NCBI RefSeq assembly: GCF_036127095.1
Contig: NZ_CP108006.1
Coordinates: 8,051,501-8,115,500 of the forward strand
Origin: Streptomyces sp. NBC_00335
Lineage (GTDB): Bacteria > Actinomycetota > Actinomycetes > Streptomycetales > Streptomycetaceae
DNA length: 64,000 bases
Direction of reading: 5' to 3'
The translations under genes and the position numbers were made by a program. Within the stretch, counting starts at the first letter, position 1. The number at the start of each line of letters is the position of its first letter. Below the pieces are notes generated by a model, which saw only the letters and a list, made by a program, of their open reading frames with translations, was not told the DNA's origin and made no database searches. This document shows positions 11,057 to 32,561 of this stretch, piece by piece.

Positions 11057-11323
11057 TCAGAACCAGGTGAGGGTGAGGGGGAAGGTGGTGGTGGCGGTGG
11101 TCGGGGTGGTGTCGGTGGCGGTGATGGTGATCTGGATGGTTCCGGTGGCCCAGGGTTTGCCGGTGATGCGGCCGGTGGTGGTGTCGAGGGTCAGGCCCCA
11201 GGGGAGTCCGGTGGCGGTGTAGCGGACGGGGGCTTTGCCGCCCGTGGTGGTGAGCTGGATGGTGCAGTTCTGGTTGAACTTGCAGCTCTGCGGGCCGGGG
11301 TTGGTCAGCTTCAGCTCGGCCGA
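11057..11323 (-). repeat. left arm of a long inverted repeat (Ig-like domain module)
   Basis: 267 bp encoding the C-terminal Ig-like domain. Compared by eye with 33680-33946 on the opposite strand, only two substitutions were seen, both synonymous (TCG/TCA and CCG/CCA). The arms bracket the lipid-synthase cluster at a distance of about 22 kb. Confidence 0.9.
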
Positions 11324-13878: not shown

Positions 13879-16800
13879 GTGTCCCCCCAGCCCGAGCCGT
13901 CCCCCCAGCCCTCGCGTGCCCTCCCGCCCCACCAGCCCCCGCCGGCTCCGCGCCCTGCGCCGCCTTCACGCAGCCCGCGGCCTCCGCGACCGGCACGGCC
14001 CGCACAGACCGCACAGACCGCACCTTCCGGGCGATCGGCGCCGGCGGCCGCGACGACAGGGAGGTCGGGGGAGAAGTCCGCGCCGCTGGGGGAGCGGACC
14101 GAGCCGTCGGGCGCGGAGCGGCCCGAGTCGTCGCCCACCGAACGGCACGAACAGCACGAACAGCACGAACAGCACGAACGGCCCGGGCGGCTCCGCGCCG
14201 CCGACCGTGACCTCGTCGTCGCGCTCAGCCCGTTCGAGGAGCCCAACCCGCGGATCGTCACCGCCGCCGAGCGCGCCGGAGCCCTGGGCCTGCTCGACCT
14301 CGGCCGGGACGCCGGGGCCGCGCGGAGCGCCATGGCCGAGATCGCCCGCCGCCTCGGAGCCGGCCGCTACGGGGTACGCGTGCCCGCGGGCTGCACGGTC
14401 GGGCCCGAGGAGCTGCCGGCCGAAGTGGACACGGTGCTGCTCGCCGACCCCGCGGGCCACACCCCGGAAGGGGTGGCCGGCTGGGCGGCCGCCGACGGGA
14501 GGCCTCGGGTGTGGGCGGAGGTCACCGATCCGGCCGAAGCCGCGGCCGCGGTGGCCGCCGGGGTGAAGGCGCTCGTGGCCAAGGGGCACGAGGCGGGAGG
14601 CCGGGTGGGCGGGACCACCACCTTCGTACTCCTCCAACAGCTTCTCGCCGACCCCGGGTTCGGGCTGCCCGTTCGGGCGTACGGAGGGATCGGGCCGCAC
14701 ACGGCGGCCGCGGCCGTCGCGGGCGGAGCCGCTGGCGTGCTGGTCGACGTACAACTGGCCCTCACACCTGAGGGGGAGGTCGCACTGCCCGCCGAAGTGG
14801 ACGCGGCCGTACGGGCCATGGACGGCTCCGAAACCAGACTGCTGCAGGGCCACAGGGTGTACACGCGCCCCGACCTGACCCCGCCGCAGGGGCCTGTGGC
14901 CACCCTGCTGGGCGCCCGGGACCTGCGGACACAGCTGCTCCCGGTCGGGCAGGACGGGGCCTCGGCGGCCCGCCTGGCCGCCCGCCACCGGACGACCGGA
15001 GGCATCCTCCAAGGCATCCGGTCGGCCGTCGCGGGACATCTGGCGGCCGTCGTACGGGCCCGGCCGCTGGGGGGCGGCCACGGCCCGGGGCGACCGCTCC
15101 CGGTGGCGCAGGGGCCGATGACCCGGGTCAGCGACCAGGCGGCCTTCGCCGAAGCGGTGGCCGCAGGCGGCGGGGTCCCCTATCTGGCGCTCGCCGTCAT
15201 GGAGGGGCCGCAAGTGCGCCGGCTCCTCGCAGAGACCGCCGAGCGGCTCGGGGAGCGGCCCTGGGGCGTGGGAATGCTCGGCTTCGCCCCGGCCGAGCTG
15301 AGGGCCGAGCAGCTCGCGGCCGTCGCCGAGGTGCGCCCGCCGTACGCGATCATCGCGGGCGGCACCCCGGGGCAGGCGGCCCCGCTGGAGGCCGCCGGAA
15401 CCCGGACCCATCTCCACGTGCCCTCGCCCGGCCTGCTGGAGCGGTATCTCGCCGACGGGGCACGGCGGTTCGTGTTCGAGGGGCTGGAATGCGGGGGACA
15501 CGTCGGGCCGCGCGCCTCCTTCCCCCTGTGGGAGGAGCAGATCGAGCTGCTGCTCTCCTGCCCCGAACCGGCCGCGCTGGACGTGCTGTTCGCGGGCGGA
15601 ATCCACGACGCCCGATCCGCCGCCATGGCCGCGGCGGCCGCGGCACCGCTGGCCGAACGGGGTGCGCGCATCGGGGTGCTCATGGGCACCGCGTACCTGT
15701 TCACCGAGGAGGCGGTGGCCGCGGGCGCGGTCCTGCCCCGCTTCCAGCGGGCGGCGCTGGAGTGCGCGGACACCGTACTGCTGCACACGGCGCCGGGACA
15801 CGCCACCCGCTGCGCGGTCACCCCGTACGTGGACACCTTCGAGGCCACCCGCCGGCGGCTCGCGGAAGGCGGCGCCGAACCGCGCGAGGTGTGGGAGGAG
15901 CTGGAGCGGCTCAACCTGGGAAGGCTCCGGATCGCCAGCAAGGGCCTGCGGCGCGGGCCCGACGGTTCCGGGCTGGAGCCCGTGGGCGAGGAACAGCAGG
16001 GATCCGAGGGGCTGTTCATGCTGGGCCAGGCCGCAACCCTGCGCACCGGCACCACCACGATCGCCGCACTCCACGCCGAAGTCACCCAGGGTGCGACCGA
16101 GTTGCTGCGGCAGCGTGCCCAGGAGCTCGCCGGTCCCGACCCCGAAGGTGATGCCGCGGACGCGATGGCCGGCGGCGCCGCCGCACCGGCCGAGCCGCTG
16201 GACGTCGCCGTCGTCGGCATGGCCTGCGCCTACCCCGGCGCACCGGACCTCGCCGCCTACTGGGCGCGGATCCTGGACGGGAGCGATGCCGTGACCGAGG
16301 TCCCGGCCGAACGCTGGGACCCGGCGCTCCACTTCGACCCCGACCCGGCACGGGCCGGTGAACGCACCCCGTCCCGCTGGGGCGGCTTCCTCGGCCCGAT
16401 GGCCTTCGACGCCCTCGCGCACGGCATCCCGCCGGCCTCCCTGGCCGGGATCGAACCGGTACAGCTGCTCGCCCTGGAGATCTCCGCGCGGGCCCTGGCG
16501 GACGCCGGGTACGGCAAGGGCCGGGAATTCGACCGGTCCCGGACCTCGGTCGTGTTCGGCGCGGAAGCCGGCACCGAGCTGGCGGGCGCGTACGGGCTGC
16601 GCGCGCTCTACCCCGGATACCTGGGCGAGATCCCACCCGAGCTGGACGAGCAGCTCCCGCGGCTCACCGAGGACTCCTTCCCCGGTGTGCTCGCCAACGT
16701 CATCGCGGGCCGGGTCGCCAACCGGCTCGACCTCGGCGGCGCGAACTGCACGGTCGACGCCGCATGCGCCTCCTCGCTGGCCGCACTCGACCTCGCCTGC

Positions 16801-19800
16801 CGCCAACTGCGCGACAAGGACAGCGACATGGTGCTGTGCGGGGGCGCCGATGTGCACAACGGCATCAACGACTACCTGCTGTTCTCCTCCGTCCGCGCCT
16901 TGTCCCCGGGCGGCCGCTGCCGGCCCTTCGACGCGGCCGCCGACGGGATCGCCCTCGGGGAGGGGGTCGGGGCGCTCGTACTGAAGCGGCTCGCCGACGC
17001 GGAACGGGACGGCGACCGCGTGTACGCCGTGATCAAGGCGGTCGGCGCCGCCAGCGACGGACGCTCCCTGGGCCTGACCGCCCCCCGGCCGGAGGGACAG
17101 CGCAGGGCCCTGGACCGGGCCTACGCGCGGGCCGGGATCAACCCCGCCGAGGTCGGCCTCATCGAGGCGCACGGCACCGGCACCGTGGTCGGAGACACCA
17201 CCGAACTGGCGGTACTGACCTCCCTGTTCACGGAATCGGGCGCCGCCCCCGGAGCCTGCGCGCTGGGTTCGGTGAAATCCCAGATCGGGCACACCAAGTG
17301 CGCGGCCGGGCTCGCCGGACTGATCAAGGCCGTCAGGGCGGTCCACTCGGGCGTACGGCCGCCGACCCTGCACCTCGACGCACCGGTCCCGGCCTGGAGC
17401 GCGGAGGCCAGCCCCTTCTCCTTCGACGCCGGGGCCCGGCCGTGGGCGGTGCCCGCCGAACGGCGCATCGCCGGGGTGAGCGCCTTCGGGTTCGGGGGCA
17501 CCAACTACCACGCGGTGCTGACCGGTTACGCGGGAGCCGAGGAGCCGCGGCACGGACTGGAGGAATGGCCGGCCGAACTGTTCTGCTTCCGGGGCGAGGA
17601 CCGGCGGGCGGCGGGCCGGGCGATGGCCCGGCTGGCGGCCCGGCTGGAGGAGAACGACGCGGCCGGGCGCCCGTGGGCGCTGCGCGACCTCGCCGCCGAG
17701 GCCGCGGCCGGAGCGGGTGCGGTGCGGGTCGCCGTCGTGGCCGCCGACCTGGACGAGCTGGCGGACCGCCTTGAGCGGGCACGCGCCTTCACCCCGGGCG
17801 CGGGGGTCCACGTACGGGAGGAATCGGCGGCGCCCGGACAGGTGGCCTTCCTCTTCCCCGGCCAGGGCAGCCAACGTCCTGGCATGCTCGGTGAGTTGTT
17901 CACCGCCTTCCCGCCGCTCCGGGAGCTGCTGGACGCGGCGCCGAGCACGGTGATCTCCGCGATGTTCCCCCCGGCGGCCTTCACCGCACAGGGGCGGACC
18001 GCCCAGCGCGCCGCGGTCACCGACACCCGGGTGGCCCAGCCGGCCCTCGGGCTGGCGGGCTCGGCGGCGCACATGCTGCTCGGGGAACTCGGTGTGCGGC
18101 CGGACTGCGTGGCCGGGCACTCGTACGGCGAGCTCACCGCACTGTGGGCGGCCGGGGTGTGGGACCAGGAGAGCCTGCTGCGGCTGAGCGCGCGCCGGGC
18201 CGAAGCCATCCTCGCGGCCGCCGGGACGGATCCGGGGGCGATGGCGGCGGTGACCGCCGCGCCGGAGGAGGTGCGGGAGATAGCCGCGCGTGCCGGGTGC
18301 GTGATCGCCAACCACAACGCGCCCCGCCAGTGCGTGATTTCGGGTCCCTCCGCCGCCGTTGCCGAGGCGGTGACCGCCCTGCGGGAGGCGGGCTTGTCGG
18401 CGACGCCGCTCCCCGTGGCCTGCGCGTTCCACAGTGAGGTCGTGGCCGGCGCGGCCACGGCCCTGGCCGAGGAACTCGCCGGGACGGAACTGGCCGAGGC
18501 CGCCGTCCCGGTCTGGTCGAACACGACGGCCGCCCCGTACCCGTTGACCGCCGACGCGGTACGGAATCTGGTGGCCCGTCAGGTCGGCGAGCCGGTGCGG
18601 TTCGTGGAGCAGGTGGAGCACATGTACGCCGCCGGAGTACGGACCTTCGTGGAGGCCGGGCCGGGCCGCGTCCTGTCCGGCCTGGTCGGCCGCATCCTGG
18701 GCGACCGGCCGCACACGGTGGTGCCGCTGGACGTGCCGGGTGAGCACGGGCTGCTCCGCCTCGTCACCGCCCTGGCGGAACTGGTCGCGGCGGGCGTCCC
18801 GGTGGCACCCGAAGCCCTGTTCCGCGGCCGAACCTCCCGGCTCCCCGAGCGCGCTCCACGCCGCCCGGGCTGGCTGGTGGACGGCCACCTGGTCCGCACC
18901 CGGGACGGCAACCCCGTCCCCGGTGGCCTCCGCCCGGCCCGCCGGGTCCACGTCGCGGTATCCGAAGGAAAGGGAGCCCATCAGATGGCGCAGCCGAAGA
19001 ACGGCACCGGTCAGGTGGGGAGTTCCGCCGAGCCGGGGGCCCACGCGAACGGCGCCCCCGCGAGCCTGCCGACCCCTGCCGGGGGCGGGCACTGGCTGCC
19101 TGCCGAGGCCGGTTCGGCTTGGAGCCCCGCCCGGGAGGCGGCGATGGCGGACGGCCGCGAGAACGGCCGCTTCACGAGCAACGGGCACGGCGCCGCCCCT
19201 GACGGGGGTGGGCCTTGGCCGGCCGGCGGGGTGGCTGGTACGGGTGGCCAGGCAGGGGGCTTCGACCCGGCGGGGGGTGCGGTCGCGGGGCGCGTGGAGT
19301 CTCCCTTCGCGGGGCCGGGGAGTGGGGGTCCCGTCGGGGGTGGTCCTTGGTCGCAGGGCGCGGGCGCGGGCTCTGGCGCAAGTGGATCGGGCGCCGGCGT
19401 TGCGGGGCCGGGGAGCGGCGGTCCTGCCGGAGGCGGACACCGGTTGCCGGGTGGGGGGCCGGGTGTGGGTGGCTCGGGTGGCGGTTCCGGTCCGGTGGGA
19501 GGCCCGATGGGCGGCTACGCGGACGCGCGCAACGGCCGGGCCGGGACTCCGGCGGCCGAGGGGACGCCGTTCGTCCCCGGGAGCGGTGGTCCCGTGGTCG
19601 GTTCGGTCGTGGGGGGTGCGGATGGCCGGCGCCTCTGGACCGCGAACGGCGGCCCGGGCGCAGGTCTTGAGCTGCCGACGGGCCCGGCCACCTGGGCGGG
19701 GGCTCGCACCGGTCAGCCGGCCGAGCACGCCGCACCTGCCCCGGCGGACCGCCGTGAGGAGGCGGTCCTGGAGTACCTTCGCGGTTCGCGCGAACTGGTC

Positions 19801-22401
19801 CAGGCGCAGCGGGACGTGATGATCGGCTACCTGGCGTCGACCGCGACGGCCTTGCCGTGGGGCGGCCCGGACCAGGCTCCGCCCGGGCAGTTCGCCGTCA
19901 CCGGCCCTGCCCGCGCGATCCCGTCCTCCCCCCTCGGTGCCACCCCTGGCCCCGTGGACCCCCAGGGCGTGGGGGCGACCCCGGACCGGGGTCCCGGACA
20001 GGGGTTCGCGGCCCCGCGGGGAGCGGAGGGGGCTCCGGGGGTGTTGCAGGGCGCAGCTCCGGCTGCCTTCTGGTCCGAGCCCCGGCCGGACGGGCGAAGC
20101 CTGCCCGGAGGTGCCGACGGCGCCTGGTCCGGGGCCCATGCCGCGGCCCCGACGGGCGCGGATCCCGGTGCCGGGGGGTCGGGCTCGTGGCCGGCGGGAG
20201 CTGACGGCGCAGCCCCGGGCGCCGGACTGCCCGGCGGACGGGGGGCGACCCCGGGGATGCTCGCGGACGCAGCCTCTCCGTATGCGCGGGGCGAGTCCCG
20301 GTCTGACGGTGCGGGCCTGCTGGGGGGTGCCGACGCCTTCCGGCCCGCCGCTCAGGTCGGGAGCGACGGAGCAACTGGACCGTGGCCGACGGCTCCGGGT
20401 GGGCCGGCGTTCGACGGCGTGGCCCCGGGTTCCGGGATGCCCGGCGGTGCGGCCTCCGGTTCGGGGATGCCCGGGGGTGTCGCCCTGGGCAACGGGATGC
20501 CCGGCGGTCCGACCCCGGGGTCGGCGACACCCGGCGGCGTCCCGGGAGACGGCCTGTCCGCGGGTGACGAGCGTCGGGGTGCGGGCGACAGCGGGGGCGC
20601 GGCTCGTGGGGGGCCGCGGTCCGCCGAGGAGGTGATGGACGTGATCGTGGAGATCGTCCACACCCGGACCGGGTACCCGCGGGACATGCTCGCTCCCGAG
20701 CTGGACCTGGAGGCGGACCTGTCCATCGACTCCATCAAGCGGGTCGAGATCATCGGCGCCCTGGCCGACCGGATCGGCCTGCCCCAGGATGCGGGCGGCT
20801 CCGCCGATTCCGCGATCGAGGAGCTGTCCCGGATCAAGACCCTGCGCGGCATCGTGGACTGGGTCTCCGGCCACACCGCCCACCCCGAGCCGCCGGCCGT
20901 CGAAGCGGAGGCCCCGGCAGCCGCAGCGGCCCCGCCCGCGCTCGGCCGGCTCCGAGTGGAGCTGCACGCTCTGCCGCCCGCACCCGGGGACCCGGAGGCC
21001 CTGCGAGGTCTGCGGATCGGGGTCGTCGGGGAGGCAGGAGACGGCCAGGGCGTCGTGCCCGCTGTCCTCGGAGCCCTCCGGTCTCACGGGGCGGACGTAC
21101 GGCAACTCGCCGAGGGGGAAGCAGGGTTCGACGCGGTCCTCGACCTGTCCGCCCTGCGGCCGGGAGCGGAACCCGTCCTGCCCGAGTCCTTTCCCGGGCT
21201 GCAACGGGCCCTGACCGGCGGTGTGCACCGGCTCCTGATGGTCACCGTCCGCGGTGAGTCCGCCGGAGCGGGAGTGCACGGCTTCGCCCGCAGCGCCTCC
21301 CTCGAATACCCGGGCAGGCTGATCCGGGCCGTGGAGGTCCACTCCAAGGAGGACCCGGAGCGGATCGCGGCGCAGCTCCTCGCGGAGCTGAGCTGCGACC
21401 CGGCCGACCCGGCCGACCCGGCCCATGCCACCAGGTCTGCGGAGGCCCCCGCCTCCATCGCCTACACGGCCGAGGGCCTACGGGTCACCGCCCGGCCGGT
21501 ACCCGCACCGCTCGCCCCCGGCGACGGGACGCCGCCCCTCGATGCCGGCTCGGTGGTCCTGCTCACCGGCGGGGCCCGCGGGATCACCGCCCGGACCGCC
21601 CTGGCGCTGGCCCGGGCCACCGGATGCCACGTAGAGCTGATGGGGCGTACGCCTCAACCATCTTCAGAGGCAGATGAGTTCGGGCACGCCACCGATCGGG
21701 TCGCCCTGCGCGCCGCCCTCATCGCCACCGGCCTGCGCACCCCCGCGGAGATCGAGGCCGCGGCTTCGCGGATCCTCGCCGAGCGCGAGGTACGGGCCAC
21801 CCTGGAGGCCCTCGCGAGCGTGGCCGCGTCCGTCGGCTACCACTGCGCGGACGTCACGGACGAGCAGGCGGTACGGGGCGTCGTGGCCGCCGTACGGGCC
21901 CGCCACGGCCGGCTGGACGGGATCGTGCACGGAGCCGGGACGCTGAACGACGGGCTGCTCCGCGACAAGCAACCGGCCTCCTTCTCCGCGGTGTTCACCA
22001 CGAAGGTGACCGGTGCGCGCCACCTCGCCGCCGCCGCGGCCGAGCACGGCGCGGCGCCCGCACCCCGCTTCCTGGCCCTCTTCGGCAGCGTCGCGGGCGT
22101 GTACGGAAACCGGGGACAGACCGACTACGCCGCCGCCAACGACGCCCTCGACGGCCTCGCGCACATCTGGGCGGAGGACTTCCCGGGCCGGGTGCTCTCC
22201 CTCGACTGGGGCCCCTGGGCCGCGGAGGCGGGCGGCATGGTCAGCCCCGAACTGGCACGCGCGTACACCCGCCGGGGCATCGCGCTCATCGACCCGGAGG
22301 CGGGCGGCGCCGCGTTCCTCGCCGAACTCGCGCACGGGACCGACGTACAGGTGGTCCTGATGGCGGCCGACGGGCACGAGGGGGGTGAGCGGCGTGCCTG
22401 A
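13879..22401 (+). CDS. PUFA-synthase-like megasynthase: NMO/ER x2 - KS - AT - ACP - KR
   Basis: A 2840-residue iterative synthase of the secondary-lipid type. Domains by residue: Pro/Ser-rich tail (1-120); a nitronate-monooxygenase-like half (about 125-400) and a second complete PfaD-like one (about 410-740; QGPMTRVSD, GGTPGQAAPLEAAGTRTHLH), presumed trans-ER-type reductases; KS (775-1217; Cys963, His1098, His1138); AT (1320-1630; GHSYGE Ser1415, AFHS His1518, malonyl-type); Gly/Pro linker (about 1670-2245); one ACP (Ser2285 in IDSIKRVE); KR (2557-2830; Ser2737, Tyr2750). All catalytic residues are intact. GTG 13879 follows GGAAGAGGAG. EPA/DHA synthases usually have several ACPs; this has one. 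Confidence 0.9.
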   Translation: MSPQPEPSPQPSRALPPHQPPPAPRPAPPSRSPRPPRPARPAQTAQTAPSGRSAPAAATTGRSGEKSAPLGERTEPSGAERPESSPTERHEQHEQHEQHERPGRLRAADRDLVVALSPFEEPNPRIVTAAERAGALGLLDLGRDAGAARSAMAEIARRLGAGRYGVRVPAGCTVGPEELPAEVDTVLLADPAGHTPEGVAGWAAADGRPRVWAEVTDPAEAAAAVAAGVKALVAKGHEAGGRVGGTTTFVLLQQLLADPGFGLPVRAYGGIGPHTAAAAVAGGAAGVLVDVQLALTPEGEVALPAEVDAAVRAMDGSETRLLQGHRVYTRPDLTPPQGPVATLLGARDLRTQLLPVGQDGASAARLAARHRTTGGILQGIRSAVAGHLAAVVRARPLGGGHGPGRPLPVAQGPMTRVSDQAAFAEAVAAGGGVPYLALAVMEGPQVRRLLAETAERLGERPWGVGMLGFAPAELRAEQLAAVAEVRPPYAIIAGGTPGQAAPLEAAGTRTHLHVPSPGLLERYLADGARRFVFEGLECGGHVGPRASFPLWEEQIELLLSCPEPAALDVLFAGGIHDARSAAMAAAAAAPLAERGARIGVLMGTAYLFTEEAVAAGAVLPRFQRAALECADTVLLHTAPGHATRCAVTPYVDTFEATRRRLAEGGAEPREVWEELERLNLGRLRIASKGLRRGPDGSGLEPVGEEQQGSEGLFMLGQAATLRTGTTTIAALHAEVTQGATELLRQRAQELAGPDPEGDAADAMAGGAAAPAEPLDVAVVGMACAYPGAPDLAAYWARILDGSDAVTEVPAERWDPALHFDPDPARAGERTPSRWGGFLGPMAFDALAHGIPPASLAGIEPVQLLALEISARALADAGYGKGREFDRSRTSVVFGAEAGTELAGAYGLRALYPGYLGEIPPELDEQLPRLTEDSFPGVLANVIAGRVANRLDLGGANCTVDAACASSLAALDLACRQLRDKDSDMVLCGGADVHNGINDYLLFSSVRALSPGGRCRPFDAAADGIALGEGVGALVLKRLADAERDGDRVYAVIKAVGAASDGRSLGLTAPRPEGQRRALDRAYARAGINPAEVGLIEAHGTGTVVGDTTELAVLTSLFTESGAAPGACALGSVKSQIGHTKCAAGLAGLIKAVRAVHSGVRPPTLHLDAPVPAWSAEASPFSFDAGARPWAVPAERRIAGVSAFGFGGTNYHAVLTGYAGAEEPRHGLEEWPAELFCFRGEDRRAAGRAMARLAARLEENDAAGRPWALRDLAAEAAAGAGAVRVAVVAADLDELADRLERARAFTPGAGVHVREESAAPGQVAFLFPGQGSQRPGMLGELFTAFPPLRELLDAAPSTVISAMFPPAAFTAQGRTAQRAAVTDTRVAQPALGLAGSAAHMLLGELGVRPDCVAGHSYGELTALWAAGVWDQESLLRLSARRAEAILAAAGTDPGAMAAVTAAPEEVREIAARAGCVIANHNAPRQCVISGPSAAVAEAVTALREAGLSATPLPVACAFHSEVVAGAATALAEELAGTELAEAAVPVWSNTTAAPYPLTADAVRNLVARQVGEPVRFVEQVEHMYAAGVRTFVEAGPGRVLSGLVGRILGDRPHTVVPLDVPGEHGLLRLVTALAELVAAGVPVAPEALFRGRTSRLPERAPRRPGWLVDGHLVRTRDGNPVPGGLRPARRVHVAVSEGKGAHQMAQPKNGTGQVGSSAEPGAHANGAPASLPTPAGGGHWLPAEAGSAWSPAREAAMADGRENGRFTSNGHGAAPDGGGPWPAGGVAGTGGQAGGFDPAGGAVAGRVESPFAGPGSGGPVGGGPWSQGAGAGSGASGSGAGVAGPGSGGPAGGGHRLPGGGPGVGGSGGGSGPVGGPMGGYADARNGRAGTPAAEGTPFVPGSGGPVVGSVVGGADGRRLWTANGGPGAGLELPTGPATWAGARTGQPAEHAAPAPADRREEAVLEYLRGSRELVQAQRDVMIGYLASTATALPWGGPDQAPPGQFAVTGPARAIPSSPLGATPGPVDPQGVGATPDRGPGQGFAAPRGAEGAPGVLQGAAPAAFWSEPRPDGRSLPGGADGAWSGAHAAAPTGADPGAGGSGSWPAGADGAAPGAGLPGGRGATPGMLADAASPYARGESRSDGAGLLGGADAFRPAAQVGSDGATGPWPTAPGGPAFDGVAPGSGMPGGAASGSGMPGGVALGNGMPGGPTPGSATPGGVPGDGLSAGDERRGAGDSGGAARGGPRSAEEVMDVIVEIVHTRTGYPRDMLAPELDLEADLSIDSIKRVEIIGALADRIGLPQDAGGSADSAIEELSRIKTLRGIVDWVSGHTAHPEPPAVEAEAPAAAAAPPALGRLRVELHALPPAPGDPEALRGLRIGVVGEAGDGQGVVPAVLGALRSHGADVRQLAEGEAGFDAVLDLSALRPGAEPVLPESFPGLQRALTGGVHRLLMVTVRGESAGAGVHGFARSASLEYPGRLIRAVEVHSKEDPERIAAQLLAELSCDPADPADPAHATRSAEAPASIAYTAEGLRVTARPVPAPLAPGDGTPPLDAGSVVLLTGGARGITARTALALARATGCHVELMGRTPQPSSEADEFGHATDRVALRAALIATGLRTPAEIEAAASRILAEREVRATLEALASVAASVGYHCADVTDEQAVRGVVAAVRARHGRLDGIVHGAGTLNDGLLRDKQPASFSAVFTTKVTGARHLAAAAAEHGAAPAPRFLALFGSVAGVYGNRGQTDYAAANDALDGLAHIWAEDFPGRVLSLDWGPWAAEAGGMVSPELARAYTRRGIALIDPEAGGAAFLAELAHGTDVQVVLMAADGHEGGERRA
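18900..20610 (+). repeat. low-complexity Gly/Pro/Ser linker coding region in the synthase
   Basis: About 1.7 kb encoding an unstructured Gly-, Pro-, Ala- and Ser-rich linker between AT and ACP. It is broken once by a helical, conserved-looking segment (EEAVLEYLRGSRELVQAQRD, near 19755-19815). The 3' part has a repeating GMPGG/TPGG unit near 20430-20550. Reading frame and high GC3 continue through it, so it is probably translated. Confidence 0.8.
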
Positions 22402-25400: not shown

Positions 25401-27064
25401 CGGAACCCCGCCCGGTCCTCCTCTCTTCCCTGGACGCAACCCCCACCGAAGGACCGACCGAGACGCAAGCCGCGACGCAGACCGGGTCCCGGCCGCAGAC
25501 CCACACCCTGCGCCTCTCCCTCGCCACGCTGCCCTACGTCCGGGACCACTGCGTCTACCTCCAGCCCGACGCATGGCCGGAGGACTCCGACCGGTTCCCC
25601 GTGGTCCCCATGACGACGATGCTGGAGCTGGCGGCCGAGGCCGCACTGCGGGACGCACCCCCCGGCCTGGCCGTCATCGGCTACGAGCGGGTACGCGCCA
25701 TGCGCTGGCTCCCCGTGGAGCCGGCCCTCGACGTGGAGGTCACCGTACGGCCCGCCGGGTCCGGCCGCGTGCGCGTCACCCTCGGGGAGTACGCCGACGT
25801 GTTCGTACTGCTCGGAGAGGGCTACGAGGCCCTGCCCGGCCCCGACACCACCCCGCTGCGCGAGCCCCGGCCGGCCCCCGTCAGTGCCGAGGCCCTCTAC
25901 CGGTACCGGTGGATGTTCCACGGCCCCCGCTTCGCCGGGGTGCACGAGGTGCGGTCCGTCGGAGAGGACGGCATCCGGGGCGTGCTGCGGGCGCTGCCCG
26001 ACCCGGGGGCACTGCTCGACGCCGCCGGGCAGCTCTTCGGGCACTGGATGCAGTTGCGGCTCCCCGTGGACCGGCTGGTGTTCCCGGCCACCGTGGACGC
26101 CATCCGCTTCTCGGGGCCGCCGCCCGCCCCGTACGAGCTCGTCGGGGCCACGGCCCGGATCCGCGAGGTGCGCGATGTCACCGTGCGCGGCGACCTCGAA
26201 CTGCTCCGGGCCGACGGCCGGGTGTGGGCCCGGATCGACGGCTGGACGTACCGCCGCTTCGGCGCCGACGAGCGGGTCTGGCCGATGAAGTTCACCCCGG
26301 AGGTCTGCGGCATCGGCGAACCCCGCCCCGAGGGCTGGTGCCTGGCCCGCCGCCGCTGGACCGACCCCGCCTCGCAGGAGCTGGTCATGCGCCGCTACCT
26401 CGGCGCCGCCGAGCGCGCGGCCTACGAGCGGCTCGCGCCGCGCGCCCGGGTGCCTTGGCTGCTGGGCCGGATCGCCGCCAAGGACGCGCTGCGCCACCTG
26501 CTCTGGGACGGCGGGGCCGGGCCGGTCTTCCCGGCCGAGGTGCCGATCGGCAACGACCCGGCCGGGCGGCCCTTCGCCGGGGGCGCCCTGGCCGGGGGAG
26601 TCCACCTGACCATCGCCCACAAGGACCGGATCGGGGTCGCCCTCGCCCACCACGGCCTGCCGGTCGGCATCGACGTGGAACAGGTGACCACCGACCCGGA
26701 CGCGCTCATCCGCGTCGCCCTGGCGCCGGGCGAACTCGCCCTCGCCGAGCGGCTGGCGGCCCAGGAGGGCACCGGACTCCCGGCCGCGCTCACCGCCCTG
26801 TGGTGCGCCAAGGAGGCGGCCGCCAAGGCCGCCGGAACCGGACTCGGAGGCCGCCCGCGCGACTGGCGGACCACCGGCGACCCGGGCTCCGGCGAGCTGA
26901 CAGTGCTCTCCCCGGACGGGCAGCCGTATCCGGTCCGCACCACCCTGCTCGTGCTCGCGGACGAGCCACTCGCCCACCCCGACCACGTGGTGGCCTGGAC
27001 CGACCGTCCCGCGATTCCGTCCCCCGTCCCCTTCCACCTCACGGAGACCAGTCATGGCAGCTGA
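22385..27064 (+). CDS. PUFA-synthase-like protein: KS - AT-like - DH - phosphopantetheinyl transferase
   Basis: A 1559-residue partner of the upstream synthase. Domains: KS (about 38-520; Cys248 in DAACASS, His386, downstream KSMLGHT); PfaB-like acyltransferase (about 630-930; GHSLGE Ser699, GFHTP); double-hotdog dehydratase (about 1030-1320; His1055 in RDHCVY, Asp1212 in LLDAAGQ); and a fused Sfp-type PPTase (about 1340-1540; GIDVE near 1430, WCAKEAAAKA near 1475), which could prime the ACPs of this cluster. The GTG start overlaps the previous stop by 17 bp; GTG 22394 is an alternative. A short Gln/Gly repeat follows the start. Confidence 0.9.
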   Translation: MSGVPDRHRQGQGQGQGQGQAGGWGAGQRRHHRGPRPTDAAIVGMGAVFPGAADLAAYRRNLLAGTDCIGDVPPGRWDPEVYYDPGGAAGPVSGDRFYCRRGGFVDGLAAFDPTRFGIMPATVEGAEPDQMLALHATAEAIADAGGEGRLPADRSRIGIVLGRGGFMGVATARLDQRVRTAHQLAQTLRELAPELGERRIAAVRSAFQEALGPERPDASIGLVPSFTAARTANRLDFHGPAYTLDAACASSLLAVDQAVGLLAGGRCDAVIAGAVHHCHIATLWSVFTQLRALSPSERIRPFDRRADGTLLSEGTGVVLLKRLADAERDGDRIYAVIRGTGVAGDGRAASLMSPLVAGQVRALERAWREAGLDPRAPGALGLLEAHGTGTPVGDTAELDTLAQVFGSYAGAGMGGAAGLDAALDLDGGNAIGFGSVKSMLGHTMQASGMAGLIKAALAVHEGVLPPTLHLEEPHPGLARTRMRPVTAARPWERGPAPRRAGVNAFGFGGINAHVVLEEAPGAARRAEPSGRTTPSRPAAPVRRFLPLGGAAAPVGAPAREEVLLLAASDTAELTARLASGAPASGGDGPCRLAVVGPTPQRLALAAKVVARGRAWRGRGEVWFTPEPLGGRLAFLFPGLEPEFAPALDDVADRLGLERPRLTRGEELTERALDAIATGRFLARVLPELGIQADVLAGHSLGEWAAMVAAGMYRQDAADTFLDSLRPGSVKVPDLVYAALGCGTRRAEAALHGLDGVVVSHDNCPHQSVVCGAPAEVATVLERLKAEGVLGQELPFRSGFHTPMWEPYLGQVRAAFARLPLQRGTLPLWSATTCAPFPPEPEAVRELVVRHLLEPVRFRELTLRLYEDAGVRGFVTLGPGSLPGFIEDTLRDRPHYSVAASSPRLTGLAALRRTCAALWTEGHAPRWDRLAPDGTGGPARTANGRAAPVGPPAVPTAGRGVLLDLGSPLVRLGEAARATLSGLLPQATTPIAAPTQTTTTPTAPLPAEPRPVLLSSLDATPTEGPTETQAATQTGSRPQTHTLRLSLATLPYVRDHCVYLQPDAWPEDSDRFPVVPMTTMLELAAEAALRDAPPGLAVIGYERVRAMRWLPVEPALDVEVTVRPAGSGRVRVTLGEYADVFVLLGEGYEALPGPDTTPLREPRPAPVSAEALYRYRWMFHGPRFAGVHEVRSVGEDGIRGVLRALPDPGALLDAAGQLFGHWMQLRLPVDRLVFPATVDAIRFSGPPPAPYELVGATARIREVRDVTVRGDLELLRADGRVWARIDGWTYRRFGADERVWPMKFTPEVCGIGEPRPEGWCLARRRWTDPASQELVMRRYLGAAERAAYERLAPRARVPWLLGRIAAKDALRHLLWDGGAGPVFPAEVPIGNDPAGRPFAGGALAGGVHLTIAHKDRIGVALAHHGLPVGIDVEQVTTDPDALIRVALAPGELALAERLAAQEGTGLPAALTALWCAKEAAAKAAGTGLGGRPRDWRTTGDPGSGELTVLSPDGQPYPVRTTLLVLADEPLAHPDHVVAWTDRPAIPSPVPFHLTETSHGS

Positions 27065-27404
27065 CATCCTCGCCGAGATCACCGGCATGCTCGTGGAGAT
27101 CGTCGGTGACGAACACCTCCTCGCGGACGAGGTCACGATGAAGACGACGTTCAACGAGGACCTCGCCCTGGAGAGCATCGAGTTCGTCGCCCTCGCCGAA
27201 CTCCTCCACCACCGCTACGGAGCCCAAGTCGACCTGATGGGCTTCCTGTCCGAGAAGGACATGGACGGCATCCTCGCCATGTCCGTGGGCGAACTCGTCA
27301 CGCACATCGGCCGGATCACCCACGCCTCCCTCACGCACGCCACCCGCACCCATGCCTCAGCGGGTGCCGCCCGCGCCGCCGCCCCGGCCGGATCGGACGG
27401 CTGA
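27054..27404 (+). CDS. free-standing acyl carrier protein
   Basis: A 116-residue protein whose first 80 residues form an acyl carrier domain. The phosphopantetheine serine is Ser41 (EDLALESIEFVALAE). The C-terminal 30 residues are an Ala/Thr/His-rich tail. The ATG at 27054 lies inside the end of the PKS2 gene (11-bp overlap), so expression is coupled. It may shuttle the acyl chain from the synthase to the hydrolase or glycosyltransferase, or supply starter units; sequence cannot decide. Confidence 0.92.
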   Translation: MAADILAEITGMLVEIVGDEHLLADEVTMKTTFNEDLALESIEFVALAELLHHRYGAQVDLMGFLSEKDMDGILAMSVGELVTHIGRITHASLTHATRTHASAGAARAAAPAGSDG

Positions 27405-27410
27405 TCCGCC

Positions 27411-28286
27411 ATGGCCTTCGTTCCCGCGGGCGCCGTCCGCTTCCACGTCCAGCAGCTCCCGGCCACCGCGCACGCGGCCGGCCCCGACGCCGCCGACCGC
27501 CCCGTGGTCGTCTTCCTGCACGGGCTGGTCGTCGACAACCTCTCCTCCTTCTACTGCCCCCTGGCCGTCCCGGTGGCCCGGGCCGGGTACGAGGTGGTCC
27601 TCTACGACCTGCGCGGCCACGGCCGTACCGAGCGCCCGGACACCGGCTACGACAGCCGCACCGCCGTACGGGACCTCTTCGCCCTGCTCGGCGCACTCGG
27701 CCTCGGGCAGCGTCCGGTGCACCTGGTGGGCAACAGCTACGGCGGCACCCTGGCACTGCACGCCGCCCTCGCCCGGCCCGACCTGGTCGCCGGCCTCACC
27801 CTGCTCGAACCCCCGCTCAGCGGGGCATGGGTGGACAACATGGTGGACACCCTGTCGGCGGCCGCCCTCGGCCTGGAGGACAGTGCGGTACCCGCCGAGC
27901 TGCTCACCCTGCGGCTGCGCAAGGCGGCCAACCTCACGGCCATCGCCGACGACCTGCTCAACCGCACCACCCTCATCGACGACATCGCCGCGAGCCGCAC
28001 CTTCACCCCGGGCGACTACGCCGGACTGCGCTGCCCCGTCCTGATCGTCTGCGGCGAGCACTCCGAACTGGTCCCGGGTGCAATGGAATTGGCCCGCCAC
28101 GCCCCGCACGTGACCGCCGTCGAGATCCTGCCGGGCCTGGGGCACGACGTGCTGAAGGAGAACAGCGGAGCACTGCGAGCGGCCGTACTCGCCCACCTCG
28201 ACGCGACGGCCACGGCGGGGGCACTCACGGGGGCATCGGCATCGAGATCGACGGTACGGCCGCGGGCGGGAGCGCTGGTCCGATGA
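27411..28286 (+). CDS. alpha/beta-hydrolase
   Basis: A 291-residue alpha/beta-hydrolase with the oxyanion-hole region FLHGLVVDN, nucleophile elbow GNSYGG (Ser109), and late motifs VCGEHSELV and GLGHDVL, whose His completes the triad. The usual acid after the GE motif is Glu or displaced, so the acidic residue is not certain. It lies 6 bp after the ACP gene and shares an ATGA overlap with the glycosyltransferase gene. In this setting it may act as a thioesterase or acyltransferase that releases the chain from an ACP. Confidence 0.86.
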   Translation: MAFVPAGAVRFHVQQLPATAHAAGPDAADRPVVVFLHGLVVDNLSSFYCPLAVPVARAGYEVVLYDLRGHGRTERPDTGYDSRTAVRDLFALLGALGLGQRPVHLVGNSYGGTLALHAALARPDLVAGLTLLEPPLSGAWVDNMVDTLSAAALGLEDSAVPAELLTLRLRKAANLTAIADDLLNRTTLIDDIAASRTFTPGDYAGLRCPVLIVCGEHSELVPGAMELARHAPHVTAVEILPGLGHDVLKENSGALRAAVLAHLDATATAGALTGASASRSTVRPRAGALVR

Positions 28287-29458
28287 AGGTGCTCTTCACG
28301 GTGCCGCCGCTCGCGGGGCACGTCAATCCGACCGTGGCGGTCGGCGCCGAACTGGCCGCCCGCGGCCACGAGGTCGCCTGGACCGGCCCGCCCGGGGCGC
28401 TGGCCCGGCTGCTGCCCGAGCACGCACGGATCCTCTCCGCGGGCGCCGAAGCGGGCGGCGACTACGCGATGCTGCACACCCGCTGGCGCGATCTGCGCGG
28501 AGTCGGGGCGCTGCGGTTCCTCTGGGAGGAGGCGCTGGTCCCCCTGGCCAGGGCGATGCTCCCCGGCGTGGTCCGGGCGGCCGGCGCCTTCCAGCCGGAC
28601 GTGCTCGTCGCCGACCAGCAGGCCCTGGCCGGTCCGGTGGCCGCGCGGCGGCTCGGGATTCCCTGGGTGACCTCCGCCAGCACCTCGGCCGAACTGACCC
28701 TCCCCTTCGCGGACTTCCCGAAGGTCGGCGAGTGGGTGGCCGCGCAGATCGCCGGCCTGCTGGCGGAGTGCGGGGCCGAGCCGGAGCCGGCCGGAGCGGC
28801 GTGGGATCCACGGTTCTCGGAGCAGCTGGTCCTGGTGTTCTCCAGCCGCGAACTGGTGGGGGGAGACGGGAAGTTCCCGCCGCACTACGCCTTCGTAGGC
28901 CCGGCCTTCGGGTCCCGGCCGTCCGTACCCGGCTTCCCCTGGGAGCAGCTGGATCCGGAGCGGCGACGGGTGCTCGTCTCACTGGGAACCCTCAACCAGG
29001 AGGCCGGGGGCCGGTTCTACGGCGCGGTGCTGGGCGCCGCCGAACGACTGCACAAGGAAGTCCAGTTGGTCCTGGCGGCCCCCGCCGCCCTGGTCGGGAA
29101 GGTCCCCGGGAACGTCCTGCTGCGCGACAGCGTGCCGCAGCTGGATCTGCTCCGACACCTGGACGCCGTGGTCTGCCACGGCGGCCACAACACCGTCTGC
29201 GAGGCCCTCGCGCACGGGCTGCCGCTGGTCGTCGCCCCGATCCGCGACGACCAGCCGATCGTCGCCCGCCAGGTCGTGGAGGCCGGGGCCGGGGTTCGGG
29301 TGCGCTTCGGCAGGACCCGGGCCGAGGAACTGCGCGACGCGCTGACGGCCGTACTGGACGATCCCGGCCACCGCCGGGGCGCCCGGCGGATCCAGGCCTC
29401 ATTCGCCGCGGCCGGCGGGGCAGCCGCCGCGGCCGACCGGTTGGAGGAACTCGTATGA
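28283..29458 (+). CDS. MGT-family glycosyltransferase (GT1-like)
   Basis: A 391-residue UDP/TDP-sugar transferase of the macrolide/MGT type. The N-terminal acceptor domain begins VLFTVPPLAGHVNPTVAVGAELAARGHEV. The C-terminal nucleotide-sugar signature is intact: HGGHNTVCEALAHGLPLVVAP near residue 298, then DDQPIVARQV. Proteins of this class glycosylate lipids, carotenoids or polyketides at a hydroxyl. ATG 28283 overlaps the hydrolase stop (ATGA). Placed inside the lipid-synthase operon, it probably adds sugar to the synthase product. Confidence 0.92.
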   Translation: MKVLFTVPPLAGHVNPTVAVGAELAARGHEVAWTGPPGALARLLPEHARILSAGAEAGGDYAMLHTRWRDLRGVGALRFLWEEALVPLARAMLPGVVRAAGAFQPDVLVADQQALAGPVAARRLGIPWVTSASTSAELTLPFADFPKVGEWVAAQIAGLLAECGAEPEPAGAAWDPRFSEQLVLVFSSRELVGGDGKFPPHYAFVGPAFGSRPSVPGFPWEQLDPERRRVLVSLGTLNQEAGGRFYGAVLGAAERLHKEVQLVLAAPAALVGKVPGNVLLRDSVPQLDLLRHLDAVVCHGGHNTVCEALAHGLPLVVAPIRDDQPIVARQVVEAGAGVRVRFGRTRAEELRDALTAVLDDPGHRRGARRIQASFAAAGGAAAAADRLEELV

Positions 29459-31512
29459 CGCGCTCCCCGCTCCCTTCCCCCGCCCGGATCCGCCGCACCG
29501 CGCGCCCGCTGCTGTCCGGCGTCCGGTGGACCTCCGTCCTCCTGCTCGCCGCCCTCGGCGCGGGCACGGTGCGCGCGGCCCGCCGCCTGCGGGCGGTCCC
29601 GGTACTGCCCATGACCGCCCCCGCGGACGCCGGGGTGCCGCGCGCCGCCGGCTGGCGGCTGCTCACAGCCGGCGGCGTCGAGCCCGACGTGGTCACCTTC
29701 CTGGCCGCCTGCGCGTACGCCGACCGGGAGGGGCTGCGGGTACTGGACCTGCTGCCCGGGGACCTGCCCACCGAGCGGGTGCTCGGCCTGCTGCGCCTGG
29801 TTGACCCGGCCGGCTACCGGCAGGACCGGCTCGGCGAGGGGCGCGGGGCCGGCTTCGCCGTGCTCGTCGCCGAGGAGGTGCTCGCCCGGGCCGGGGTGGA
29901 CCTGCCGGGACCGGACGCCACGCCGGCGGAACTCATGGCCGTCGTCCGGCGCGTGAAGGAATACGCCGCCGATGCCACGGGACTGGCCATCGCACCCGCC
30001 CTGAGCTGCGGACCACCCGCCGCCACGGACGGACCGGCGCGGGCGGCCGAACTGCGGGCCCAGGGACTGCCGCCCGGGGCGCTCGCCGCCGCCCAGCTCG
30101 CCGGGCTGGCCCTGCTGGCCGGGGCCGCCGTACGCCAGGGCCGGTGGGGCGCCGCCGCGGCGGGGCTGTACTGGATCCAGCCCTACCTGGCCCTCGGCCG
30201 GTCCGGCGCGCTGCGCCCCGGCGACCTCGCCCGGGCCACGGCCGCCCGGCCCGTACGCTCCCTCGGCGCGGCCGTGCGTACGGCCGCCGCGACGACCCGT
30301 ACGCCGCCACCCGGGGCCGCCGTCCCGGCGAACGGCCCGGCCGCTGCGCAGGACGCGGACCGGACCGGCATCAGGGCCGAGGGGGTCAGGGCCGAGGGGG
30401 TCCGGGCGGAGGTGGTTCGGGCCGAGTCCCTCCGGGCCGAGTCCCTCCGGGCCGAGGCGGACCGGGCCGAGTCGGTCCGCGCCGAGGCCGTCCAGGCGTA
30501 CCGGGCCGACCTGGCCGCCGGCACCGACCGGTTCTTCGAACCGCGCCGCCCGGACTGCCCCTGGTGCGGCTCGCGCCGCCTCACCGTGCGGGTCCGGGTG
30601 CCCGACCTGCTCCAGGGCAAGCCGGGCCGCTTCACCCTGGAACAGTGCGGAGCCTGTGGGCACGTCTTCCAGAACCCCCGACTCTCCCCGGAGGGTCTGG
30701 AGTTCTACTACCGCGACTTCTACGACGGCCGCGGCGGCGAGGGCGCGGCCACCGTCTTCGGCCGGCTCGGCGCCGCCTACCACGGCCGGGCCGAAATGCT
30801 CCGCCCGCACACCGATCCCGTGTCCTGGCTCGATGTCGGCACCGGACACGGCCACTTCTGCAACGCGGCCCGCGCCGTCTGGCCCGACACCCGGTTCGAC
30901 GGACTGGACATGGGCGACGGGGTCCGCGAGGCCGAGCGGCGCGGCTGGGTGGAGACGGGGTACCAGGGCCAGTTCCCGGAGTTCGCGGTGAAACTGGCGG
31001 GTCAGTACGAGGTGGTCAGCATGTACCACTACCTGGAGCACACCCGGGACCCGCTGGCGGAACTGGACACGGCGGCCGCCGTCCTCGCCCCCGGCGGCTA
31101 CCTCACCATCGAACTCCCCGACCCCGAGTCCCGGATGGCCCGGCTGCTCGGCCCGGCCTGGCTGCCCTGGTTCCAGCCGCAGCACCAGCACCTGATCCCC
31201 TCCTCGAACCTGCGCGAAGCCCTGGCCGACCGGGGGTTCACCGTCCTCGCCGAGGAACACGGGCCGGCCCACCAGGGCAACGACTTCTTCGGCGCGGTGG
31301 CCCTGACCGCGACCCGGCTGGCTCCCGACCCGGACCGCCCCTGGGGGCCCCCGGCCACCACCGGCCGACGCGTCCTGACCGGCGCCGTACGCCTGGCCTC
31401 GCTGCCGCTCTTCGCCGCCGCGGCGGTGCTCGACGGACTGCGCACCGCCGCGGCCCGGCGCACGGACGGCGGCAACGCCTACCGGATGCTGGCCCGCAAG
31501 GACGAGCTGTGA
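29455..31512 (+). CDS. membrane-anchored fusion with zinc motif and SAM methyltransferase domain
   Basis: A 685-residue fusion. Residues 20-45 form one hydrophobic segment. Residues 55-260 are Leu/Ala-rich without an identified family and include another hydrophobic stretch near 215-245. Eight tandem pentapeptide repeats of the xRAEx type follow (305-344). A CPWC...CGAC zinc-ribbon-like motif (about 367-400) then leads into a class I methyltransferase (about 455-600; WLDVGTGHGHF SAM loop). The start overlaps the previous stop (ATGA). Likely role: methylation of the lipid or its sugar at the membrane. The N-terminal half has no assigned function. Confidence 0.85.
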   Translation: MTRSPLPSPARIRRTARPLLSGVRWTSVLLLAALGAGTVRAARRLRAVPVLPMTAPADAGVPRAAGWRLLTAGGVEPDVVTFLAACAYADREGLRVLDLLPGDLPTERVLGLLRLVDPAGYRQDRLGEGRGAGFAVLVAEEVLARAGVDLPGPDATPAELMAVVRRVKEYAADATGLAIAPALSCGPPAATDGPARAAELRAQGLPPGALAAAQLAGLALLAGAAVRQGRWGAAAAGLYWIQPYLALGRSGALRPGDLARATAARPVRSLGAAVRTAAATTRTPPPGAAVPANGPAAAQDADRTGIRAEGVRAEGVRAEVVRAESLRAESLRAEADRAESVRAEAVQAYRADLAAGTDRFFEPRRPDCPWCGSRRLTVRVRVPDLLQGKPGRFTLEQCGACGHVFQNPRLSPEGLEFYYRDFYDGRGGEGAATVFGRLGAAYHGRAEMLRPHTDPVSWLDVGTGHGHFCNAARAVWPDTRFDGLDMGDGVREAERRGWVETGYQGQFPEFAVKLAGQYEVVSMYHYLEHTRDPLAELDTAAAVLAPGGYLTIELPDPESRMARLLGPAWLPWFQPQHQHLIPSSNLREALADRGFTVLAEEHGPAHQGNDFFGAVALTATRLAPDPDRPWGPPATTGRRVLTGAVRLASLPLFAAAAVLDGLRTAAARRTDGGNAYRMLARKDEL
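30367..30486 (+). repeat. eight 15-bp in-frame tandem repeats
   Basis: Eight units of 15 bp, each encoding a variant of x-x-Arg-Ala-Glu, form a charged helical spacer between the N-terminal membrane region and the zinc/methyltransferase half of the fusion protein. Whole-codon units mean copy-number changes would keep the frame. Confidence 0.85.
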
Positions 31513-32561
31513 CGGGCCCCGGCGCGCGGACCGGCCCGGTCTGCGCCGCCACCGGCCCCACCACCGACCCCGCCACCGGCCGGGCTGCCACCGGCCCCAC
31601 CACCGGCCAGGCAGCCACCGGCCCCGGCCCCGAGGCGCTCACCGGAGGCGACCTGGCCCGCCGGGCCACCGCCGACCCGCTCTTCCGCCTGGTCGCCTAC
31701 GCCCTGGAGGCCGCCCACGGCCGCCCCCCGGCCGCCGTCTGGAGCGCCCCGTACACCTTCCACCTCGGTTCCCCGGGCCTCGTCGCGGCAGCCGGCTGGC
31801 CGGTGGCGGCCGCGGCGGCCCCGCGCGCCGACGGCCTCGTACGGCTCAGCTCCCTGGCCCACCCGGCGGACGGCTGCGACCTCCCGCTGACCCTGTCCGG
31901 GCCGCCGCCCGCCACCCCGGCCTGGGCCGCCCGCCCGTACGCACTGCTGCGCGCGCTGGCCCGGGCCGGGTACGGCCGGGGCGGCACCGACCTGCACGTG
32001 CAGGGCTCCCTCACCGCGGCCGCCGGGCTGGCCACGCAGGAGGCCGCGGACTGCGCGGTGGCGCTCGCGGTGGCCGACGTCCACACACCGGCGGGCGAGG
32101 ACCCGGACCGGGTGCGGCTGGCCCGGCTGATGGCGGAGGCGCTGCCGGACGGCGACGACCCGCTGCGCCGCGGCGCCCTCTTCGCCCGGCCGGGCAGGGC
32201 CCTGCTGCTCGGCCAGGGTCCACCCCGGCCGGAGCCCCGGCGGCAACGCCAGCGGTACGTGGTCTTCGACCCGGCCGACTCGGGCGCACGCCTGGTGCTG
32301 TTGGCCCTGCGGCCGGACCCCGACGGCACGCAGGACCGTACGGCCGACCTGGCCCGGGCCGTCGGGTGCGCCCGGCGGGCCGGGGCCCTGAGCGCCTGGC
32401 AGCCCGGAGAGCGGCCCGGGCGGAGCGTTCTGGTCCTGCTGCCCGAAGCCCGGCTCGCGACGGTGCGGGCCGCGGTCGCGGAGGACTTCCGCGACCGGGG
32501 GCTGCCCGTGCCCCGGTTCCTGAACATCACCGTGGCCGGCGCGGCCCGCCGCGAGGCGTGA
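31509..32561 (+). CDS. degenerate galactokinase/GHMP-kinase-like protein
   Basis: A 350-residue protein with an Ala/Thr/Gly/Pro-rich first 40 residues, then a region that aligns by pattern with galactokinases. The stretch from PAWAARPYALLRALARAG to DLHVQGSLTAAAGLATQEAADCAVALAVADVH corresponds to the GHMP core, and the C-terminus resembles the galactokinase end. The key ATP loop (normally GLSSSAA) reads GLATQEA, and the N-terminal substrate motif (GEHTDY) is not preserved. Catalysis is therefore doubtful. The GTG start overlaps the methyltransferase stop. It could bind a sugar or regulate, or be decaying. The assignment is by eye and moderate. Confidence 0.6.
   Translation: MTGPGARTGPVCAATGPTTDPATGRAATGPTTGQAATGPGPEALTGGDLARRATADPLFRLVAYALEAAHGRPPAAVWSAPYTFHLGSPGLVAAAGWPVAAAAAPRADGLVRLSSLAHPADGCDLPLTLSGPPPATPAWAARPYALLRALARAGYGRGGTDLHVQGSLTAAAGLATQEAADCAVALAVADVHTPAGEDPDRVRLARLMAEALPDGDDPLRRGALFARPGRALLLGQGPPRPEPRRQRQRYVVFDPADSGARLVLLALRPDPDGTQDRTADLARAVGCARRAGALSAWQPGERPGRSVLVLLPEARLATVRAAVAEDFRDRGLPVPRFLNITVAGAARREA

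Follow-up and report, generated by a model that had tools for sequence, protein, structure and literature searches.

A conserved seven-gene operon with a Pfa-like lipid synthase and a predicted pseudo-galactokinase in Streptomyces sp. NBC_00335

A stretch of 64,000 nucleotides from Streptomyces sp. NBC_00335 (the window; contig C1 8051501-8115500 in a two-contig genome of 9.0 Mb) carries seven plus-strand genes, g1 to g7, at positions 13879-32561, next to a divergent gene for a LysR-type regulator. These genes form a real, complete and conserved operon for an orphan pathway, and the nearest architecture found for it, judged by domain order and protein comparison, is the ars/Type P phenolic-lipid synthase. 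The LysR-linked operon probably directs the synthesis of a specialised long-chain glycolipid, that is, a long and mostly saturated chain that is glycosylated and perhaps methylated. A first-pass annotation of this DNA had described the seven genes as a secondary-lipid synthase operon that includes genes for glycosyl and methyl transfer, and that class is supported here. What appears to be new is that g7 is a pseudo-galactokinase, maintained despite the loss of its active site. Synthases of the Pfa-like kind are found in many bacteria, and the products of only a few are known. As a self-contained unit of seven genes, widely conserved and built around an ars-like core, the operon yields a clear prediction that can be tested, and it may tie orphan synthase types of actinobacteria to a pathway already characterised.

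Layout, conservation and active sites

The claim that the seven genes are joined by overlaps or by gaps of at most 6 bp was confirmed by the coordinates and by the start and stop codons: the overlaps are 17, 11, 4, 4 and 4 bp, and the single gap, between g3 and g4, is 6 bp. The start codon of g1 is GTG, with AGGAG upstream. The genes are as follows.

13879-22401, plus strand: g1 (2840 amino acids, aa), a predicted PfaD-PfaA fusion with tandem FabK/NMO-like enoyl reductase (ER), ketosynthase (KS), acyltransferase (AT), acyl carrier protein (ACP) and ketoreductase (KR), from domain models, structures and a motif
22385-27064, plus strand: g2 (1559 aa), PfaBC-like, with KS, AT, PS-DH dehydratase (DH) and phosphopantetheinyl transferase (PPTase), from Pfam and residue counts
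27054-27404, plus strand: g3, a probable free ACP, from weak ACP models and a conserved Ser
27411-28286, plus strand: g4, an alpha/beta hydrolase (Pfam Abhydrolase), candidate thioesterase or acyltransferase
28283-29458, plus strand: g5, a predicted GT1 (MGT/OleD/YjiC-like) glycosyltransferase, from domain models and a conserved His13
29455-31512, plus strand: g6, a predicted methyltransferase with CxxC..CxxC and an N-terminal membrane and alpha-beta region lacking a Pfam match
31509-32561, plus strand: g7, a predicted pseudo-galactokinase, from a weak galactokinase match and active-site counts

The KS, AT and KR domains of g1 were matched by Pfam. Its ER is of FabK/NMO type in two stretches (TIGR03151, 87.4 bits, under the model cut-off), a region that FabK structures also match at E about 1e-10, and a single D-S-I motif of the ACP pattern D/E-S-L/I/M lies between the AT and the KR. 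The Pfam NMO and PP-binding models were silent on g1 and both match its Beijerinckia homologue, PP-binding in two stretches. For g2, Pfam gave the order KS-AT-PS-DH-ACPS; g3 had no Pfam match, and the NCBIfam ACP models matched it weakly (best 24.2 bits, under the cut-off). The domain make-up originally read from the letters, ER-KS-AT-ACP-KR and KS-AT-DH-PPTase followed by ACP, hydrolase, glycosyltransferase and methyltransferase, is thereby borne out by domain models and motifs.

Relatives of the synthase were found at 44 loci in one scan, three genomes being split over two loci each and two loci (L049 and L051) being matched through g1 only. They lie mostly in Streptomyces, and also in Actinomadura, Yinghuangia, Thermomonospora, Longimycelium and one Gemmatimonadetes metagenome-assembled genome. 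Among loci with enough flanking sequence, to which all synteny counts are restricted, the ACP gene was present in 35/36, the hydrolase in 36/36, the glycosyltransferase in 35/35, and the methyltransferase and g7 each in 32/33. Since the downstream genes recur in the same order wherever sequence reaches at loci drawn from a single scan, the arrangement is not due to chance. The tailoring set is family-wide and not special to this strain, and the earlier suggestion that it marks out the present version fails on the same counts. The Thermomonospora locus is without ACP, methyltransferase, g7 and the phosphoesterase described below. Two linear Streptomyces plasmids (L053 and L054) carry a six-gene version, g1 to g6 only, with a methyltransferase of 355 aa that is without the N-terminal extension of g6; neither LysR nor g7 was matched on these two plasmids. 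The core operons of these large linear plasmids sit near transposase genes. When g7 is used as a marker, which overlooks versions without g7, 10/150 genomes of the genus are positive, this strain included.

Catalytic residues were counted over 46 loci (L009-L054) with the window included, a sequence being counted if at least 60% of the domain was covered, which gave 35-42 sequences per domain; KS and AT counts were made with the g1 and g2 domains kept apart. The Cys and both His of KS1 are conserved in 36/36, the Cys and first His of KS2 in 42/42 and its second His in 41/42 (one gap), and the AT Ser is found in 35/35 for AT1 and 40/41 for AT2. His1055 and Asp1212 of the g2 DH are kept in 39/39 and Gln1216 in 38/39, the KR Lys, Ser, Tyr and Asn in 40/40, and the ACP Ser in 38/38 for g1 and 37/37 for g3. 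An F-H motif is present in both ATs, which we take to suit malonyl. The pathway looks functional through g6, because the identifiable catalytic residues of g1-g6 are intact or conserved, and the predicted anatomy supports chain elongation that is iterative, uses malonyl units and has the full set of reductive steps available.

The same intact DH and KR residues would serve a glycosylated conjugated polyene or partly reduced polyketide, made with an ER that is active in some cycles only; the second AT and the free ACP could then serve a change of programme, and alternating reduction is proposed for the related chitinimine synthase in the available text of PMC13291983. Against this stand both ER barrels, which are conserved, the FabK-type EGxExGGHxG of the second barrel being kept in 37/37 (two Type P-like proteins were also offered to this set), and such conservation fits routine enoyl reduction. 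A polyene is on balance considered rather unlikely.

Kinship of the synthases and comparison with known types

A first KS tree was made of 53 domains picked from the 107 available (34 loci and the window), and in a second tree 10 rows, mostly long-branched, were removed so that 43 remained; the references came from plasmid records, one of which (Beijerinckia) is named Type P in PMC3098273. The first tree grouped KS1 with PfaA-type KSs and those of Beijerinckia and Methylosinus in one clade (98/98); the KSs of these two organisms are its neighbours at 97/93, with a single long Rhodobacteraceae row in between. In the second tree KS1 lay within the secondary-lipid group (99/97), apart from five modular KSs. 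In both trees KS2 formed, together with the KS2s of its family, a clade of its own that lay inside the secondary-lipid group and apart from the five modular KSs. A modular polyketide synthase (PKS) is ruled out by the two trees, and the placement in modular polyketide clades that the first-pass annotation had set against its own reading did not occur in either. The operon has the features by which Shulse and Allen recognise a Pfa-like secondary lipid synthase, namely at least one KS, ACP and KR, and a proximal KS that groups with validated pathways instead of modular PKSs.

When the KS-AT part of g1 was ranked by identity (best 50 of 1294 records), its own kind on the two plasmids came first with 62%, followed by Methylosinus, Azospirillum and Beijerinckia with 47-50%, by a third tier of 41-46% that includes the Pfa-like records examined, and by a last tier of 37-39%, mostly annotated as type I PKS. 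Identity between g1 and the Beijerinckia synthase was 43% over 1651 columns, and that between the DH-PPTase end of g2 and the Beijerinckia ArsD-like PS-DH-PPTase protein was 28% over 566 columns. The Beijerinckia record holds an NMO-KS-AT-ACP(2)-KR protein, two KS III-type genes, the PS-DH-PPTase protein and a glycosyltransferase. A Rhodobacteraceae plasmid (L063 7892-22511) shows another secondary-lipid layout, with an NMO-KS-AT-KR synthase, an AT/PS-DH/PPTase protein, a TauD-family dioxygenase and a methyltransferase. On contig C2 (296,690 bases), judging by frame length and position in the tree, several KS genes at 79759-193518 resemble modular or type II ones.

Members of Type P include Beijerinckia indica ATCC 9039 and Azotobacter vinelandii, and phenolic lipids with C22-C26 chains were shown in Azotobacter (both from the available text of PMC3098273). 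The operon shares with this type a fused ER-KS-AT-ACP-KR protein, a PS-DH and a PPTase on one protein, although these are fused to KS-AT in g2, and, in the first tree, the clade that holds KS1 and the Beijerinckia KS. It is unlike this type in having a free ACP, a hydrolase, a GT1 enzyme, a methyltransferase and a pseudo-galactokinase. The Beijerinckia Type P cluster itself adjoins a glycosyltransferase gene (L056 23084-24460), so the glycosylation of such lipids may be wider.

The layout also fits that of Type M, by text description alone. This uncharacterised type of Renibacterium, Frankia, Actinosynnema and Streptomyces avermitilis has fused PfaDA together with PfaBC-PPTase, and for Renibacterium a fused pfaDA and a pfaBC with PPTase are described in the available text of PMC13291983. 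Heterocyst glycolipid synthase (Type F), compared by its description in PMC3098273, has an HglC of KS-chain length factor (CLF)-AT without dehydratase/isomerase, from which g2 differs in having a DH and no CLF.

The first-pass annotation had also seen a resemblance to polyunsaturated fatty acid (PUFA) synthases, and this stood for the PfaA-type KS and PfaD-like ER that are shared with PfaABCDE, and failed for the CLF, the FabA-like DH and the tandem ACPs. That the operon should encode a PUFA synthase, of the kind that makes eicosapentaenoic or docosahexaenoic acid, is favoured by the TIGR02813 PfaA model, which is the top NCBIfam match of both g1 (880.8 bits) and g2 (398.3 bits), although below its cut-off of 1010.1. 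The dehydratase/isomerase of Types A, B and D is however missing, no PF07977 being found in g2 where a Persicobacter Pfa-like protein has one. Instead of a CLF after the PfaC KS, g2 has one KS and then an AT, in contrast to the second KS-like domain of the reference proteins, and g1 has one ACP motif in contrast to six PP-binding stretches in Persicobacter PfaA. The Persicobacter synthase has a FabA domain and a second KS-like domain (the CLF) besides its six ACPs, and its PfaC-like protein matches the solved ORF10, which we take to be the KS-CLF of Moritella PfaC, at 733.8 bits. A different Streptomyces Pfa-like cluster, SCO0124-0129 of S. coelicolor, is labelled eicosapentaenoic acid in the available text of some papers, but it is Type L (KS-CLF-DH2-AT with a 5' pfaD) and PUFA is described as not demonstrated for it in that of PMC3098273; the two have in common a Pfa-like synthase in Streptomyces with an unproven product, and the layout of Type L differs from that of g1-g2. 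A PUFA synthase is rejected on domain content as very unlikely. With FabA-like DH, CLF and tandem ACPs absent, a mostly saturated long chain is likelier than a PUFA.

Tailoring genes, gene 7 and the proposed product

The nucleophile Ser of g4 is conserved in 38/39 and its His in 39/39. The MGT model matched g5 with 194.1 bits, below its cut-off of 260, and in g5 His13 is kept in 39/39 and the D-Q pair in 39/39 and 38/39. In g6, Pfam identified Methyltransf_23, membrane helices are predicted, and the methyltransferase Cys pairs are present in 36/36. The N-terminal domain of g6 (29554-30360) had no Pfam match in 6/6 sequences at E up to 5 and occurs also as separate or partial hypothetical proteins in a few Streptomyces, and the fold-comparison rows span mainly residues 365-685. 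The chains of the NDP-sugar C-methyltransferases MtmC, KijD1 and TcaB9 run about 130-150 residues past the part aligned with g6, which differs from them in its membrane parts and its N-terminal domain.

The description of g7 as galactokinase-like stood for its fold and failed for its function. The galactokinase model matches g7 weakly and the fold is that of GHMP/galactokinase proteins, yet the E, H and D of the GEHTD sugar site and the catalytic Asp of MDQ are kept in 0/36 sequences. Because these residues are lost, g7 is on sequence evidence a pseudo-galactokinase and cannot be an ordinary galactokinase, and a functional galactokinase feeding UDP-galactose is ruled out by the same loss; another galactokinase, above the model cut-off, is encoded elsewhere in the genome. 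The gene is under purifying selection (dN/dS 0.18-0.30) and the family has invariant residues of its own, which, together with the persistence of the first and fourth Gly of the TGGGFGG loop (35/36 and 33/36), would also suit a kinase whose active site is new. The remaining three loop glycines are kept in only 3, 3 and 0 of 36, and with the sugar-site residues and the MDQ Asp gone from all 36 such a kinase is unlikely. The maintained g7 looks instead as if a sugar kinase had become a pathway protein without catalytic function. Chains of yeast Gal3, which is not known to act as a kinase, are among the structural matches of g7 and have the galactokinase fold in common with it.

For the long-chain glycolipid favoured here, the PPTase at the C-terminus of g2 would charge the ACPs, and the two KS-AT proteins would elongate malonyl units iteratively. 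Reduction by KR, PS-type DH and FabK-like ER would leave the chain mostly saturated, as in ars phenolic-lipid synthesis; we infer both this saturation and a length of about C20 or more. The second AT, in a role like that of PfaB, a terminal acyltransferase in the available text of PMC12895367, and/or the free ACP may hand the chain to g4, by which it would be released. A hexose could then be added by g5 from UDP-hexose, and the sugar or the acyl part could be methylated by the membrane-anchored g6. Gene 7 might serve as a non-catalytic partner, perhaps of the extra domain of g6, a partnership that is guessed from co-occurrence. The order of these steps, the sugar, the methylation site, the regulation and the role of g7 are what we infer. 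The product may even belong to a class of actinobacterial membrane or surface lipids not yet described: a very-long-chain acyl glycoside of ars type that g6 methylates at the membrane while complexed with the dead galactokinase, the latter serving as sugar- or glycolipid-binding subunit, and that is possibly a phosphorus-free membrane component like the alkylresorcinols of Azotobacter cysts; this extension is speculative and doubtful. Among the papers listed by the literature searches, no title or abstract opening reported a product for the cluster. Glycolipids of fattiviracin, cycloviracin and glucolypsin type were considered as possible products; among the papers listed for them no title or abstract opening dealt with their gene cluster, and nothing is concluded from this.

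Several observations weigh against an ars-like glycolipid pathway. The second tree does not resolve the order of KS1 relative to Type P and PUFA-type PfaA, and neither tree resolves the position of KS2 relative to PfaC-type and PfaA-type KSs. The DH-PPTase protein of Type P has no KS-AT such as g2 carries, and where g1 has one ACP motif its Beijerinckia counterpart has two stretches. The likely acid residue of g4 varies, and no solved relative of g4 was found at E 1e-15. As GT1 enzymes often act on antibiotics, the acceptor of g5 could be something besides a lipid. Beijerinckia, the Type P sequence compared, was not found to make phenolic lipids according to the available text of PMC3098273. 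Finally, a scan of the 7 operon genes and of 10 neighbours found no type III PKS of the ArsB/ArsC type, so that any chemistry shared with ars ends at the chain.

The absence of that partner also bears on a long acyl chain loaded onto a peptide, aromatic or polymer scaffold encoded elsewhere, on which the glycosyltransferase and methyltransferase would act. The free ACP and second AT would allow such a hand-over, and related Pfa-like synthases feed type III PKSs or PKS-nonribosomal peptide synthetase (NRPS) lines (available text of PMC3098273 and PMC13291983). Neither an NRPS nor a type III PKS nor another condensing partner was found among the 10 neighbours, and none is annotated beside the six-gene unit on the two plasmids, for which the gene table is incomplete, making a scaffold improbable.

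Upstream region and flanking genes

The features outside the operon are the following.

12489-13382, minus strand: divergent LysR-type regulator (Pfam HTH_1 and LysR_substrate)
13481-13497, no strand assigned: candidate LysR box, a CATACC-N5-GGCATG palindrome with T-N11-A spacing, conserved across intergenic regions
13663-13691, plus strand: candidate promoter/operator, a TTGACA-like element with a GTGCGG-N8-CCGCAC inverted repeat after it, from an alignment of 14 regions
32639-33946, plus strand: phosphoesterase PF04185 with TP-rich linker and He_PIG domain, a neighbour outside the operon
33994-35262, plus strand: transporter of the MFS family, candidate exporter, start uncertain

The longest open reading frame of the LysR gene reaches 13568, and from the alignment and the letters the ATG at 13382 is its likely start. 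The gene lies upstream in 25/29 loci with room and is missing in L041, L045, L048 and L051. T-N11-A is the LysR motif, and the palindrome CATRCC-N5-GGCATG, variable in its end base, was found in 21/25 LysR-g1 intergenic regions including that of the window, and in 17 of the 21 its distance to the LysR HTH start is 105-111 nucleotides (nt). The pattern is absent in L029, L030, L036 and L042, and L020 was excluded from the count as it had no usable coordinates. Genome-wide the palindrome is not enriched, with 2 places against 3 and 4 matches for the reversed control, so that its conservation alone speaks for it. All 14 regions in the alignment, chosen from 25, share an identical GTTGAC, and the inverted repeat is less strictly kept; a scan for the sigma-70 consensus promoter gave no full site, and the TTGACA-like element is therefore a putative promoter element only. 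A PHO box, an idea taken from the neighbouring phosphoesterase, was dropped after 8 weak matches in the window against a chance mean of 5.46, none of them upstream of the operon. The divergent LysR gene recalls, as a parallel and not a proof, the control of arsABCD in Azotobacter, which is activated by the LysR-type ArpR with acetoacetyl-CoA as co-inducer (available text of PMC4824345).

Downstream of the operon, the phosphoesterase, which is probably secreted judging by its N-terminus, is present in 26/29 loci with room and the MFS transporter in 14/27. The operon is flanked by a 348-nt inverted repeat (95%) at 11057-11404 and 33599-33946. The proteins that bear it are otherwise different and lie on opposite strands 22 kb apart, and their TP-rich linker and He_PIG ends match in 113/115 residues. 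Local gene conversion, or inversion of the intervening segment, could possibly explain the repeat, and several relatives hold both proteins at the same places.

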